From assembly GCA_937863185.1 (NCBI GenBank), contig CALMEG010000299.1, forward strand, positions 1 through 37,141: a DNA stretch of 37,141 bases. Reading direction: 5' to 3'. How positions within the stretch are numbered: position 1 is the stretch's first letter; the number at the start of each line of letters is the position of its first letter. Positions 28,073 to 33,700 of the stretch are shown in pieces. Source of the stretch: an uncultured Paracoccaceae bacterium. Lineage in GTDB: Bacteria > Pseudomonadota > Alphaproteobacteria > Rhodobacterales > Rhodobacteraceae. The notes beneath the pieces are model-generated. The model had not been told where the DNA came from, ran no database searches, and saw nothing but the letters and a program-made list of their open reading frames with translations. Position numbers and translations under genes: made by a program.

Positions 28073-28627
28073 ATGTCGGATGATGAGAACATCGAACTTG
28101 GGCCAGATCCCTCCCTGTTGCTGGTGGATGACGATGCTCCGTTTCTGATGCGCCTTGCGCGGGCGATGGAAAAGCGCGGCTTCAAGCCTGAAACGGCGGA
28201 GACCGTCGCCGCGGGCAAGGCCATCGCGCATGCCCGTCCGCCCGCCTATGCCGTGGTCGACCTGCGCCTTGAGGATGGCAATGGCCTCGATGTCGTCGAG
28301 GCGCTGCGCGAACGCCGTCCCGATGCCCGTATCGTGGTCCTGACGGGCTATGGCGCGATTGCGACGGCGGTGGCCGCGGTGAAGATCGGCGCCACCGACT
28401 ATCTGTCCAAGCCTGCCGACGCCAATGACATCACTAACGCGCTGCTGGCGCGGGGCGACAACCTTCCCCCGCCGCCCGAAAACCCGATGAGCGCGGATCG
28501 CGTCCGCTGGGAACATATCCAGCGCGTCTATGAGCTGTGCGACCGCAACGTCAGCGAAACCGCCCGCCGGTTGAACATGCATCGCCGCACGCTTCAGCGC
28601 ATCCTGGCCAAGCGCAGCCCGAGGTAA
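28073..28627 (+). CDS. regA: Response regulator RegA/PrrA
   Basis: A 184-residue, two-domain regulator. The receiver domain has the acidic pocket VDDD (residues 18-21), phosphoryl-accepting Asp63 in VVDLRLEDG, the Thr switch VLTGYG, and Lys in LSKPAD. A Pro-rich linker (NLPPPPENP) is typical of RegA. The C-terminal Fis-type helix-turn-helix (ETARRLNMHRRTLQRILAK) binds DNA. Phosphorylated by RegB, it activates or represses photosynthesis, cytochrome, CO2 and N2 fixation genes. Unlike R. capsulatus, no hvrA follows; a strong terminator lies 15 bases after the stop. Confidence 0.97.
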   Translation: MSDDENIELGPDPSLLLVDDDAPFLMRLARAMEKRGFKPETAETVAAGKAIAHARPPAYAVVDLRLEDGNGLDVVEALRERRPDARIVVLTGYGAIATAVAAVKIGATDYLSKPADANDITNALLARGDNLPPPPENPMSADRVRWEHIQRVYELCDRNVSETARRLNMHRRTLQRILAKRSPR

Positions 28628-28642
28628 CGGCGTTCCGGAATC

Positions 28643-28679
28643 AAAAAAGGGCCCCGCGCATCCTGCGGGGCCCTTTTCA
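28643..28679. terminator. Bidirectional intrinsic terminator between regA and DUF1328 gene
   Basis: A 9-bp stem GGGCCCCGC / GCGGGGCCC (7-base loop) is flanked by six A on the left and TTTT on the right, so it reads as a terminator on both strands. It separates the convergent regA and DUF1328 genes. Confidence 0.92.
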
Positions 28680-28698
28680 TGTCGTCATGGCGCTGCGG

Positions 28699-28872
28699 TC
28701 AGACCGGCGGCTTGCCGCGAACGGCGCGGGCGATCATTGCGACGACGAACAGGATCAGGAAGATCACGAACAGGATCTGTGCAATCCCTGCGGAAGCGCC
28801 GGCGATCCCGCCGAAGCCAAGAGCAGCTGCGATCAGTGCGATCACAAGAAACGTAAGGGCCCATCCAAGCAT
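28699..28872 (-). CDS. DUF1328 (UPF0391) small membrane protein
   Basis: A 57-residue protein, nearly all membrane: [25 protein letters not shown]-type N-terminal helix, then a second helix ([16 protein letters not shown]) and a short basic tail. These features match the YtjA/DUF1328 family, whose function is unknown. The ATG at 28872 follows a strong AAGGAG site. Upstream on its strand is a GGAAC-N17-CGTT promoter (28961-28936), which would start transcription about 55 bases before the gene. E. coli relatives are linked to stress and stationary phase. Confidence 0.92.
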
Positions 28873-28935
28873 GGTTTTCTCCTTCGGGTTCATTGGGTTC
28901 AGTGACGAACATGCGCATCGGCGCATCTGGTTGAA

Positions 28936-28961
28936 AACGCCGGCATACCGCAGCCGGTTCC
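28936..28961 (-). promoter_or_regulatory. EcfG-type (general stress) promoter for DUF1328 gene
   Basis: On the minus strand, GGAAC (28961-28957), 17 bases, CGTT (28939-28936). This is an exact match to the published alphaproteobacterial EcfG/SigT consensus. It is correctly placed before the DUF1328 start. Confidence 0.75.
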
Positions 28962-28995
28962 GGTCGGGGGCGGAAATTTATTTGCCCGAAATCAC

Positions 28996-29021
28996 GGAAC
29001 CGGGCGGCAGGTCCGTGCGTT
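28996..29021 (+). promoter_or_regulatory. EcfG-type (general stress) promoter for PLDc_N gene
   Basis: GGAAC (28996-29000), 17 bases, CGTT (29018-29021), 35 bp before the PLDc_N start. Exact consensus match, divergent from the DUF1328 promoter 34 bp away. Confidence 0.75.
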
Positions 29022-29056
29022 GACCGGCACTGGCCTGATCGGGAGATGGCACGAAA

Positions 29057-29260
29057 ATGGAGATGAACATGTTCGAGCTTACGGGATTTGGCGGCCTTGT
29101 GCTGCTGGCACTCGATATCTGGGCGCTGGTGTCGATCATCGGCTCTTCGCGGCCCACGGGTTCCAAGGTTCTATGGGCGCTGCTTGTGATTCTGCTGCCG
29201 CTTGTCGGTTTCCTGATCTGGCTGATCGCAGGCCCGCGCTCTGCCGTGCGCGGGGCCTGA
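29057..29260 (+). CDS. PLDc_N-domain small membrane protein
   Basis: 67 residues (63 if started at ATG 29069, which has the better-spaced GGAG site within the first codons). Two hydrophobic helices (about residues 12-28 and 38-59) surround SSRPTGSK; the second contains WALLVILLPLVGFLIWLIAGPR, the pattern of the phospholipase-D N-terminal domain (PLDc_N), here without any catalytic domain. Such stand-alone proteins are common, with unknown function. A terminator follows and an EcfG-type promoter precedes, so it is a single-gene unit. Confidence 0.88.
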   Translation: MEMNMFELTGFGGLVLLALDIWALVSIIGSSRPTGSKVLWALLVILLPLVGFLIWLIAGPRSAVRGA

Positions 29261-29296
29261 TGAACCTGCCTCTAAGGTGAAAACTGCCTCACTTTG

Positions 29297-29327
29297 CCCG
29301 CCCGCGCATTTGCCGGGCGGGTATTTT
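29297..29327 (+). terminator. Intrinsic terminator after PLDc_N gene
   Basis: An 8-bp stem CCCGCCCG / CGGGCGGG with a 9-base loop, followed by TATTTT. It lies 36 bases after the stop. Confidence 0.88.
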
Positions 29328-29344
29328 CGTTCCTGCTGCGACAA

Positions 29345-29369
29345 GGAACCTAATGCCGTCACCGGCGTT
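29345..29369 (+). promoter_or_regulatory. EcfG-type (general stress) promoter for holin-like/DUF3618 operon
   Basis: GGAAC (29345-29349), 16 bases, CGTT (29366-29369). It gives a leader of about 50 bases to the ATG at 29425. Third exact match within about 430 bp. Confidence 0.75.
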
Positions 29370-29424
29370 GAAACGTGATACGCTGCCAGTCTTCGCAACT
29401 GGCGGCGGACGGACGGAGAGAGAG

Positions 29425-29832
29425 ATGCAGGCATCGGAAGATACCGCAATCAAGGACGAGCCGATCGAGGCGCTGCTGATGCGGGCGCGGATGCAGGGCC
29501 GGGCCGTGCTGGAGGATCAACGCGCGCTGTTACGGGCCGAGGCGCAGATGCGCGCCGGGGCGCTGCAAAAGGGCCTGTTTCTGGGCGCCATCGCGCTTTG
29601 CCTTGGCATCGTCGCGCTGAACGCGCTTGGTGCGGCGCTTGTGGTGCTTGTGATGCGGGCGGGCCTGCCGCTTGGACCCGCGGTGCTGCTGGTCGGGCTG
29701 GCGGGGTTCGTTGCTGCCGTCCTTGCAGCGCAATTCGCCGCGAAATCGGCGATGCAGGCACTGAACACGCCCAGCCCCAGTCTCTCGGCGCTGTCCACTC
29801 ATGCGAAGACCATCAAGGAGACCTTGAGATGA
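29425..29832 (+). CDS. Holin-superfamily-III (YqjE-like) membrane protein
   Basis: 135 residues. An N-terminal amphipathic/charged helix (residues 12-48, IEALLMRARMQGRAVLEDQ) is followed by two transmembrane segments (about 50-77 and 82-105) and a short Ser-rich tail. The pattern fits the Phage_holin_3_6/YqjE family; despite the name, chromosomal members are not lysis proteins. The ATG at 29425 follows GGACGGAGAG. Its stop overlaps the next start (ATGA). The EcfG-type promoter upstream suggests general-stress control. Confidence 0.85.
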   Translation: MQASEDTAIKDEPIEALLMRARMQGRAVLEDQRALLRAEAQMRAGALQKGLFLGAIALCLGIVALNALGAALVVLVMRAGLPLGPAVLLVGLAGFVAAVLAAQFAAKSAMQALNTPSPSLSALSTHAKTIKETLR

Positions 29833-30626
29833 GCAAGAAATCCGACGTGAACGATATCGAGGACCGCCTGTCCGACGATCGCGCGGCCCTGGGCGAGACC
29901 TTGGCCGAGATCCTTGCGCGGGTCGGGCCGGCATTCGCGCTGGAATACGGCGTGGCGCATCTGCGCGACAATGCCGATGTCTATGCGCGGCGCGCGGGGC
30001 AAACGGTGATGAAGAACCCATTGGCATTCGCGCTGATGGGGGCGGGCCTGGCCTGGATGCTTCTGGGCAATCGCGACCCGGCTGCCTCTGACACCGCGCG
30101 CCGGAAACTGCACGAGGCGGCCGAGGATCTTTCGGACGAGGTGGATGCGGTGGCCGACCGCTGGGCGAAACGCCTCGACAAGCTGCGCCGCAGCGCTTCC
30201 GAGCAGATTTCGCGGATCGAGGCCGAAGCCGCCAAGGGGCTGGAGGATGCGCGCGATTTCACGACTGAGAAAGCCTCTGTTCTTGCGGAATTCGCCGAAG
30301 GCGTGAAATCCGAACTGGCCGGGGGGCTGGCCGATCTTTCCGCCGAGGCGCGCCGCAAGACCATCGCCGCGCGCGAAGCGGCCTATGCCGCGCGCCTCAA
30401 TGCCGAGGCCGCCGCGAAAGCCGCGGGCCAGCAGACCGCGCGCTTCGTGCAGGACCATCCGCTTGTCACCGCGGCGCTTGGCATCGGGCTTGGCGTGGCG
30501 ATCGCCGCCGCCGTGCGGAGCCGCCCGGAAAAGCCGGTGCCGGGGGGCGATCTTGGCCAGAAGCTTGCCGATATCCTGTCGGGCGAGGCAGAGGCCGCGC
30601 TGCGCAAGCTGGGCACGCGGCATTAG
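29829..30626 (+). CDS. DUF3618-domain membrane protein (YqjD/ElaB-like layout)
   Basis: 265 residues. The N-terminal DUF3618 part (DIEDRLSDDRAALGETLAEI) leads to a first membrane helix (about 63-80). A long Ala/Glu/Lys/Arg-rich helical stretch (84-205) looks coiled coil. A C-terminal helix with QDHPLVTAALGIGLGVAIAA (209-228) resembles the Gly-rich anchor of DUF883 proteins YqjD/ElaB. In E. coli, YqjD is paired with holin-like YqjE, is RpoS-dependent and tethers ribosomes to the membrane. The same partner and a general-stress promoter here suggest a comparable role, which is inference. Confidence 0.85.
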   Translation: MSKKSDVNDIEDRLSDDRAALGETLAEILARVGPAFALEYGVAHLRDNADVYARRAGQTVMKNPLAFALMGAGLAWMLLGNRDPAASDTARRKLHEAAEDLSDEVDAVADRWAKRLDKLRRSASEQISRIEAEAAKGLEDARDFTTEKASVLAEFAEGVKSELAGGLADLSAEARRKTIAAREAAYAARLNAEAAAKAAGQQTARFVQDHPLVTAALGIGLGVAIAAAVRSRPEKPVPGGDLGQKLADILSGEAEAALRKLGTRH

Positions 30627-30652
30627 GAAATGCCGCGCATCCGCAATGAGGA

Positions 30653-30686
30653 AAGGGCGTGGCTTTCGGCCACGCCCTTCGTGTTT
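30653..30686 (+). terminator. Intrinsic terminator after DUF3618 gene
   Basis: A 9-bp stem GGGCGTGGC / GCCACGCCC with a 5-base loop, followed by TTCGTGTTTTT. It separates the operon from the convergent gltB. Confidence 0.88.
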
Positions 30687-30705
30687 TTAGCCGTCCTGCC
30701 CGCGC

Positions 30706-33700
30706 CTATTCGGCAGGAAGGGCCTGGGCCTCTTCGCTCAGCGGGTGGGGCAGGTGGACCAGCATTTCCCTGGGGCAGACCTGCAGGAAGTTGGCGCGCT
30801 CTGCCTCCCAGTTTTGCAGGATCTCATGGCCCTTCTTGCTGCCGGTCTCCTGCACATGGCGCTCGACCAGCCCCCTGAGCTGGGCTTCCCAGTGCGGATG
30901 CGTCACCGCGCAGGTCACAAGGCTTTCGAGGTTCATGTAATCCTCGGCCACCCCGTCGGGATCGTAAAGATAGGCCATCCCGCCGGTCATGCCCGCGCCG
31001 AAATTCGCGCCGATCCGGCCAAGGATCACCGCAACGCCGCCGGTCATGTATTCGCAGCCGTTCGAGCCGCAGCCCTCGACCACCACCGACGCGCCCGAGT
31101 TGCGCACCGCAAAGCGTTCGCCCGCGCGCCCGGCTGCGAACAGATGGCCATCCGTCGCCCCGTAAAGCACCGTGTTGCCGATGATGGTGTTCTCCGACGC
31201 CATCAGGGGCGAGATCATCGGCGGGCGCACGACGATGGTGCCCCCCGAAAGCCCCTTGCCCACATAGTCGTTGGCATCGCCCGACACCTCGATCTTCAGC
31301 CCCGGCGCGGCGAAGGCGCCAAGCGATTGCCCGCACGACCCCGTCAGCTTGACCGTCAGGTGATCGGGTTGCAGCGCGTTGCGCATCCCGAAGTTCTTGA
31401 CGATATGGCTGGACGCGCGCGTGCCGATCGTGCGGTGGGTGTTGCGCACGGCGTAGGAGAGCTGCATCTTCTCGCCATCCTCGAAGAAGCGGTGGCCGTC
31501 CTTGATGATCTCGGCATCCAGCGTGTCGGGCACGAAGTTGCGCGGCTTGGAACGGTCGTAGACGATCTTGTCCCAGCCATCGACGGTGATCAGCAGCGGG
31601 TTGAGGTCCAGGTCGTCCAGATGCGCCGAACCGCGGCTGACCTGGGTCAGCAGGTCGGCCCGCCCGATCACCTCGTCAAGCGAGCGTGCCCCGATCGAGG
31701 CGAGGATCTCGCGCACTTCCTGGGCATAGAAGGTGATGAGGTTCACCACCTTGTCGGCCGTTCCGGTGAACTTGGCGCGCAGCGCGGGGTCTTGGGTGCA
31801 CACGCCCACCGGGCAGGTGTTCGACTGGCACTGACGCACCATGATGCAGCCCATCGCAATCAGCGCGGCGGTGCCGATGCCGTATTCCTCGGCCCCCATC
31901 ATGGCGGCCATCACGATGTCGCGCCCGGTCCGCAGGCCGCCATCGGTGCGCAGCGTCACCCGCTCGCGCAGGTTGTTCATCGCCAGAACCTGATGCGCCT
32001 CGGTCAGGCCCATTTCCCACGGAAGACCGGCATATTTGATCGAGGTCGCGGGGCTGGCCCCGGTGCCGCCGTTGTGGCCCGAGATCAGGATCACGTCGGC
32101 CTTGGCCTTGGCCACACCGGCCGCGATCGTGCCCACGCCCGAGGACGCGACCAGCTTCACCGTCACCTTGGCGCGCGGGTTGATCTGCTTGAGGTCGTAG
32201 ATCAGCTGCGCGAGGTCTTCGATACTGTAGATGTCGTGGTGCGGCGGCGGCGAGATCAGCGTCACCCCCTTGGTCGAGTGCCGCAGGCGCGCGATCAGGT
32301 CGGTGACCTTCATCCCCGGAAGCTGGCCGCCCTCGCCGGGTTTGGCGCCCTGGGCGACCTTGATTTCCAGCTCTTCGCAGTGGTTGAGGTATTCGGCGGT
32401 CACGCCGAAACGCCCCGAAGCCACCTGCTTGATCTTGGCCGAGGGGTTGTCGCCATTCGGCTCGGGCACGAAATGCGCCGGGTCCTCGCCGCCCTCGCCC
32501 GAGTCGGATTTCGCACCGATGCGGTTCATCGCCACGTTCAGCAGCTTGTGCGCCTCGGGCGACAGCGCCCCCAGCGACATGCCCGGCGTGACAAAGCGTT
32601 TGCGGATCGAGGTGATCGACTCGACCTCTTCGATCGGCACCGGCTTGCCCAGCGTCTTGATGTCCAGAAGGTCACGGATATGGATCGGCGGATTGGCCCG
32701 CATCGCGGCCGAATACTGCTTCCACAGATCGTAGGAGGCGCGGTCGCAGGCCGATTGCAGCATGTGCATCGTCTGCGCTTCCCAGGCGTGCTTTTCGCCC
32801 GTGCGGCGTGCCTTGTAGAAGCCGCCGATCGGCAGCACGTCCTGCCCGCCCTTCCAGCCCCGGGCATGCGTATCGACCAGCTTGTGCTGGATGCCGTGCA
32901 GGCCGATCCCCGAAATGCGGCTGTGCATGCCGGGGAAATACTCGGCCACCATGGCACGCGAGAGGCCGACGGCCTCGAAGTTCAGCCCGCCGCGATAGGA
33001 CGAGATCACCGAGATCCCCATCTTGGCCATGATCTTCAGCAGCCCCGCGTCGATGGCGTCGCGGTAGCGGCGCATCGCGTCGATCAGCTGGCCCTCCAGA
33101 AGGCCGCGCTCGATCCGGTCCGCGATGCTGTCCTGTGCGAGATAGGCGTTCACCGTCGTCGCGCCGCAGCCGATCAGCACCGCGAAGTAATGCGCGTCGA
33201 TACATTCGGCCGAACGGACATTGACCGAGGTGAAGGTGCGCAGCCCCTTCTTCGTCAGCCAGCTATGCACCGCCGAGGTCGCAAGGATCATCGGCATCGC
33301 CACCCGCTCGGGGCTTTGGTGTTCATCCGTCAGCACGATATGCGCCGCACCCGAACGCACGGCATCCTCGGCCTCGGCGCGGATGCGTGCGAGCCCGTCG
33401 CGCAAGGCGTCCTGATCGGCCTCGGCGGCGAAGGTGCAGTCGATGATCGTGACCGCATCGCCGAACTGGCGCAGCATCCGGGCATATTCCTCATTCGCGA
33501 TGAACGGGCTTTCAAGGATCAGGATCTCGGCCTGAGAGCTGTCTTCGTCCAGCACGTTCTTGAGGTTGCCGAAGCGCGTCTTAAGGCTCATCACGCGGCT
33601 TTCGCGCAGGCTGTCGATCGGCGGGTTGGTGACCTGGCTGAAGTTCTGGCGGAAGAAATGGCTCAGTGGGCGATACTGCTTGGACAGCACCGCGGGCGGC

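Follow-up and report, generated by a model that had tools for sequence, protein, structure and literature searches.

Judged from their sequences and those of their relatives, the two overlapping membrane-protein genes described here are a reduced version of a stress operon that is widespread, normally has three genes and is related to E. coli yqjDE. They lie in the window, by which we mean the whole 37,141-nt stretch of DNA from an uncultured Paracoccaceae bacterium that was analysed, and they encode a YqjE homologue and a divergent DUF3618-family protein behind a perfect EcfG-type promoter motif (Table 1). The original prediction had joined a holin-like two-helix gene to a DUF3618 gene, and that arrangement is borne out: both reading frames are present, they share a 4-bp overlap (ATGA), and the upstream protein matches Phage_holin_3_6 (PF07332; 30.3 bits, cut-off 28.4), with hydrophobic windows between residues 44 and 107. 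With a hairpin before its promoter and a terminator-like site behind its second gene, the pair probably forms its own transcript; the hairpin is absent from the list produced by a consensus terminator scan, and terminator-like sites of the second kind occur at a mean of 1.9 in shuffled regions.

Table 1. Features of the gene pair and its surroundings (window coordinates)
Feature	Coordinates	Strand	Evidence
Gene for DUF1328 small membrane protein, divergent neighbour	28699..28872	-	PF07043, 61 bits (cut-off 27)
EcfG-type promoter GGAAC-N17-CGTT, facing DUF1328 gene	28936..28961	-	motif scan
EcfG-type promoter GGAAC-N17-CGTT, facing PLDc_N gene	28996..29021	+	motif scan
Gene for stand-alone PLDc_N small membrane protein	29057..29260	+	PF13396, 47.9 bits (cut-off 23.3)
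Hairpin followed by TATTTT, likely end of PLDc_N transcript	29295..29331	+	fold, -24 kcal/mol
EcfG-type promoter of the pair, GGAAC-N16-CGTT, perfect	29345..29369	+	motif scan
yqjE-like gene (Phage_holin_3_6 two-helix inner-membrane protein, 135 aa)	29425..29832	+	Pfam match, profile comparison
DUF3618-like gene (265 aa)	29829..30626	+	reading frame, HMM of relatives
First, weak Gly-rich anchor, residues 63-80, NPLAFALMGAGLAWMLLG	30015..30068	+	hydrophobicity, model
Amphipathic helical linker, residues 82-205	30072..30443	+	hydrophobic moment, model
Second anchor, residues 210-230, HPLVTAALGIGLGVAIAAAVR, DUF883_C-like glycine zipper	30456..30518	+	PF19029, 19.9 bits (cut-off 27); hhalign
Terminator-like hairpin of 12 pairs with T run, 3' of DUF3618-like gene	30653..30679	+	terminator scan

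The promoter motifs would place the pair in the general stress response. EcfG had been predicted to stand in for RpoS control, and the motifs argue for this, since a perfect one precedes the pair, nepR-ecfG is present in the genome and the motif is kept in about half of the related operons. The -10 end of the pair's promoter lies 55 bp 5' of the yqjE-like start, and the corresponding distance is 32-75 bp in 33 of 36 relatives. The pattern GGAACN{15,18}CGTT occurs five times in the window (mean 0.94 and maximum 4 in 100 shuffles), and three of these occurrences fall within 434 bp (28936-29369), each correctly oriented before a gene. The strict N16-17 motif is not enriched genome-wide (40 matches in 3.08 Mb, against 74 for a backward-pattern control), so it is the placement of the three motifs within 434 bp that counts. 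A promoter scan of 28600-30760 found no sigma-70-like site. NepR is encoded in the same genome (58.3 bits) by a gene that overlaps an ECF sigma gene, the sigma frame having been assigned by eye, and there is an EcfG motif upstream of nepR too. At that site (C113:3919-3951, equivalent to L043:1678-1710) two strict EcfG motifs overlap in divergent orientation upstream of nepR-ecfG, which suggests autoregulation together with a divergent target.

Among relatives the motif was counted with the form reported for Sphingomonas melonis, GGAAC-N17-20-GTT (PMC6599016). Of the 79 named operons, 39 have it no more than 200 bp before their first gene and 40 lack it by this pattern; dinucleotide shuffles of all 79 (100 rounds) yielded 1.07 on average and never more than 3, and downstream control stretches 3 of 79. 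In the Rhodobacter-labelled subset, from which 13 of the 79 loci were left out by label, 36 of 66 operons have it. An EcfG motif was also seen within 300 bp of the tail-anchored gene in 23 of the 32 operons of a first locus set, two of which had less than 100 bp to search.

The holin-like protein had been put forward as the counterpart of yqjE, and by profile comparison it is a homologue of YqjE over its full length. An alignment of 32 sequences (A3: the window protein and 31 of 33 relatives) matched a profile of 23 YqjE proteins with hhalign at a probability of 95.9 (E 6e-9, 130 columns), and the reversed controls gave 0.3 and 0.5. The YqjE profile was built from E. coli YqjE and 22 of 28 frames, six wrong frames having been dropped; YqjE profiles compared with DUF883 as a control reached probabilities of only 4.2 and 0.9.

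Relatives of the pair belong to a longer operon with a highly regular layout. In profile scans all 79 named loci, which include Rhizobium, Pseudomonas and a Gemmatimonadales bin, showed the order tail-anchored protein, YqjE, DUF3618, and the same order holds in the first set of Rhodobacteraceae-type genome loci. At the first junction the tail-anchored and YqjE genes overlap by 4 bp in 57 of the 79, and the YqjE and DUF3618 genes overlap in 75; two gaps between YqjE and DUF3618, of 429 bp and 502 bp, look like frame-picking artefacts, as do a few odd gaps after the tail-anchored gene. Sampling of 120 genomes of the family gave a strong DUF3618 match in 25 and a strong tail-anchor match in 24, counts that are not independent of the alignments (A1, A2 and A3), since these were partly built from genomes later counted among the 120, and that leave out weak DUF3618 matches in G115 (7e-7) and G116 (4.5e-5) and a weak tail-anchor match in G005 (3.3e-5). 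All 24 tail-anchor genomes are DUF3618 carriers in which the genes adjoin; the sole exception among the carriers is the window's own genome, which is rated 100% complete and in which the tail-anchor profile has no match at E<=1e-4. Because the other 24 strong carriers all keep the tail-anchored gene, the pair reads as a pared-down form of the operon. One relative, L005, shares the window's DUF1328 and PLDc_N neighbours and yet has the tail-anchored gene, so the simplest explanation is that the window's lineage lost this gene.

In the window, the DUF1328 and PLDc_N genes beside the pair each have a strict EcfG motif of their own (28699-29260), and one or both of these genes also lie near the operon in L005, L018, L023, L032, L033 and L035.

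The second protein of the pair is a divergent member of the DUF3618 family. PF12277 gave no hmmscan match to it even at E<=1, and in a genome search it scored 14.9 bits, below the cut-off of 24.9. However, in an alignment of relatives (A8) every one of the 46 rows except the window protein matches PF12277 at E<=0.01, and an HMM made from 45 relatives alone recovers the window protein at E 6.9e-32 (105.5 bits); together these place it in the family. A8 holds 45 of the 79 loci, hand-picked for spread, and A9 holds 34 of the 79 chosen likewise, whereas A1 comprises the window protein and 28 of 33 relatives, with L006 and L007 (split genes) and L021, L023 and L042 (short) left out.

A long charged helix and a Gly-rich C-terminal membrane anchor had been predicted for this protein, and this description needs amending. 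The helical linker and the Gly-rich anchor are both there, but the anchor (residues 211-230 in the model) is followed by a 35-residue tail, and a second, weaker Gly-rich anchor is found at residues 64-80. An AlphaFold2 model from 46 sequences is all-helical, with seven helices (mean pLDDT 73, pTM 0.34) that break at conserved prolines before each anchor (H64-80, H211-230). The linker has a mean helical hydrophobic moment of 0.366, against 0.240 +/- 0.036 in shuffles, a value reached by 1 of 500, and its charge is balanced (22 K+R, 24 D+E). Across the 46 proteins K+R per residue averages 0.14 in the N-terminus, 0.16 in the linker and 0.17 in the tail; this even spread leaves the topology unfixed, and the linker could even be periplasmic. 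Foldseek of the model against the PDB returned no match at E<=0.001. The original prediction had counted a lack of structural likeness beyond generic helices among the things that would refute it, and apart from the anchor no such likeness turned up. Sequence matches in the PDB (14 at E<=1, the best at 0.14, among them histones and apolipoproteins) were judged helix noise and set aside. The Apolipoprotein profile is matched at E<=0.01 by 22 of the 46 relatives; the window protein's score of 17.7 bits is far below the curated Pfam cut-off of 90 bits, and the match may reflect generic amphipathic helices.

The N and C halves of DUF3618 resemble one another at a probability of 58.6 (reversed control 3.3), which is only suggestive of an internal duplication. 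Two adjacent genes, each coding for one of the anchors, make up DUF3618 in L006/L211 (a Tabrizicola bin), L007 and L219 (a Loktanella bin), so its halves are evidently able to exist apart.

Our preferred reading, held tentatively and a little short of an even bet, is that the pair forms a scaffold in the inner membrane, induced by EcfG, and in this way protects the envelope. Under stress the PhyR-NepR switch would free EcfG, and the two proteins would be made in a fixed ratio. YqjE would provide a platform in the membrane; on it or beside it the DUF3618 helix, held by its two anchors, would stretch along the surface and could stiffen or shield the membrane in stress and stationary phase. The EcfG-linked DUF1328 and PLDc_N neighbours would be part of the same envelope programme, and the window's DUF3618 protein, with its short tail after the DUF883-like anchor, may now do the anchoring that the lost partner once did. 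In favour of such a scaffold are the EcfG motifs at three adjacent membrane-protein genes and at nepR-ecfG, the motif's conservation in 39 of the 79 named operons, the fixed gene order in all 79 loci with its overlaps, the full-length YqjE homology, the two anchors and the amphipathic linker with the Apolipoprotein matches of relatives; the membrane and envelope roles reported for the gammaproteobacterial counterpart PA3040-3042 (PMC11302039) and the rise of Actinoplanes DUF3618/Holin-X pairs with an alternative sigma factor (PMC11205660) point the same way by analogy. Against it are the sub-threshold score of that Apolipoprotein match, the topology that the charges leave open, the pTM of the model and the 40 operons without the motif. 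We found no experimental study of DUF3618 function in the literature searched.

A growth-arrest module, in which DUF3618 would hold back or place a YqjE that slows growth through the membrane, would also be served by translational coupling, which would fix the ratio of the two proteins. Overproduction of almost any membrane protein can slow growth. Overproduced E. coli YqjE has been reported to slow growth and raise persistence (PMC4738310), but for the Pseudomonas homologue PA3041 overexpression is described as causing no growth inhibition (PMC11302039). On this evidence we consider such a module unlikely.

The ribosome tether of the original prediction, in which DUF3618 or a partner, under EcfG instead of RpoS, would draw idle ribosomes to the membrane in the manner of YqjD, relies on the YqjE homology, the stress-sigma motif and a resemblance between DUF3618 and DUF883, the family of YqjD. 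Against a 32-sequence DUF883 profile the whole of DUF3618 reached a probability of 95.2 (E 2.9e-8; reversed 31.6 and 14.7) and its C half 96.6 (E 5e-10; reversed 12.7 and 50.1). When DUF3618 was cut up, the second anchor alone still gave 93.0 (A1) and 86.3 (A8), with reversed controls of 16-36, whereas the helix before it gave 21.8 and 6.6, below its reversed controls of 42.1 and 33.5. With the signal confined to the anchor, the anchor appears to be the element shared with DUF883, although PF19029 stays below its cut-off there and a tail follows, and the predicted profile-level likeness of the DUF3618 C-terminus to DUF883 fails for the helix that precedes it. The N half matched DUF883 at a probability of 77 over 61 columns (reversed 0.6 and 2.0), a match that rests on the first anchor, since the first 60 residues alone give 1.1.

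It is the N-terminal part of E. coli YqjD that is reported to bind the 30S subunit (PMC10502375), and this part has no counterpart in DUF3618: DUF883 residues 1-45 found no match there (probability 0.6 and 2.3), so a YqjD-like tether is not supported by the sequence. A likeness seen by eye between window residues 14-33 and YqjD residues 10-29 was not upheld by profile comparison and was rejected. The balanced charge of the DUF3618 linker also speaks against a tether. A better candidate for that role is the upstream tail-anchored gene, which opens the relatives' operon in YqjD's place and whose products are weakly DUF883-like (probability 78.8, reversed 7.1 and 3.8, with 31 of 32 relatives used in A2; PF05957 matched 1 of 31 at E<=0.01, below its cut-off), but this gene is absent from the window's genome. 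PF05957 itself has no match over cut-off in that genome, nor in any of 144 genomes sampled across the class, though some alphaproteobacterial genomes in a phylum sample have one. Taken together, these results make a ribosome tether quite unlikely. In a PDB sequence search YqjD had one match at 1e-4, to a connected cytochrome construct.

The missing partner could also be taken as a sign of decay, the two remaining genes drifting after the loss of the tail-anchored one: the window's genome is the only one of the 25 strong DUF3618 carriers in the 120-genome sample to lack the partner, and its protein is the sole PF12277 failure among 46. But neither frame is interrupted or shortened, the promoter motif has no mismatch, the two genes still overlap and the profile matches are strong, all of which makes a decaying remnant very unlikely. 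We give only a slim chance to the idea that alphaproteobacteria run their own equivalent of the YqjD system under EcfG, with a doubly anchored DUF3618 in place of the single-anchor tether (YqjD has one C-terminal anchor, the window protein two Gly-rich ones), and that the window's version would have absorbed the tail-anchored role to become a two-gene minimum that docks ribosomes or other large cargo flat on the membrane under stress. A prophage holin or phage remnant, suggested by the Pfam family label 'putative holin', is hardly credible, because the holin-like protein has no PHROGs match at E<=0.1, the operon, with its stress promoter, is conserved in the family and outside it, and the adjoining frames look housekeeping (a glutamate synthase large subunit downstream, assigned by eye).

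Several systems comparable to this scaffold candidate are already in print, namely the E. coli and Pseudomonas operons and the Actinoplanes pairs. E. coli yqjCDEK (PMC10746276) resembles the window's pair in its stress-sigma control, its YqjE, its overlapping or touching membrane-protein genes and, probably, the glycine-zipper anchor of YqjD. The original prediction called the pairing the same as yqjE/yqjD, which is right for the YqjE homologue and in part for the DUF883-like anchor but not for gene order: E. coli has yqjD-yqjE-yqjK, whereas in the window yqjD's place is empty and DUF3618 stands third. Neither the N-terminal part of YqjD nor YqjK has a match in DUF3618. YqjK was considered as a DUF3618 relative and rejected, as the two show no similarity although both stand third in their operons.

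In P. aeruginosa, PA3040-PA3042 has the order DUF883, YqjE, third gene, as opposed to the window's two genes with an EcfG promoter. This operon is reported to be induced by stationary phase and envelope stress and to affect biofilm, and its third gene is without a recognised domain by that paper's description (PMC11302039). Besides the DUF883-type operon of PA3040-3042, a DUF3618-type operon occurs in several Pseudomonas genomes (L216, L218, L221-L223 and L225). In Actinoplanes, adjacent DUF3618 and Holin-X genes are reported to rise together on expression of sigma-H(As) (PMC11205660); these pairs, as there described, are like the window's in being neighbours and in their link to an alternative sigma factor, and differ in phylum and in the sigma factor concerned. 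The Rhodobacteraceae operon runs tail-anchored, YqjE, DUF3618 and can be headed by a 22-aa microprotein: its second and third proteins and its promoter type are those of the window, which has no tail-anchored gene and no microprotein seen upstream.

The functions of YqjE and of the third gene of yqjDE-type operons are described as unknown even in E. coli (PMC10746276), and neither the alphaproteobacterial three-gene EcfG form nor the window's two-gene form was found in the main texts of the literature searched. Our comparison defines an alphaproteobacterial three-gene stress operon, or four-gene with the microprotein, tied to EcfG by conserved promoters, and the window holds a natural two-gene version of it that lacks the presumed ribosome-facing partner. 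A version without this partner makes a clean test of the core function possible: if it still protects cells, ribosome tethering is not that function.

The microprotein is a conserved single-helix membrane protein of 22 aa that heads the operon in 48 of the 79 loci (L147-L225), for example at L147:3043-3108 (+), with the typical sequence MHNVFYLIGLIVVVLAVISFLF. Five copies had no match over cut-off in Pfam or NCBIfam, the frame is unannotated, and two of its core peptides appear in no main text of the literature searched; none of this 22-aa kind was seen among the short frames upstream of the window's pair. Over 45 distinct copies the base entropy by codon position is 0.81, 0.25 and 1.26, as expected for the coding frame of a hydrophobic helix. 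One contig labelled Marinobacter (L188) carries the Rhodobacteraceae-type operon together with the microprotein, and this probably reflects a wrong label or a mixed bin.
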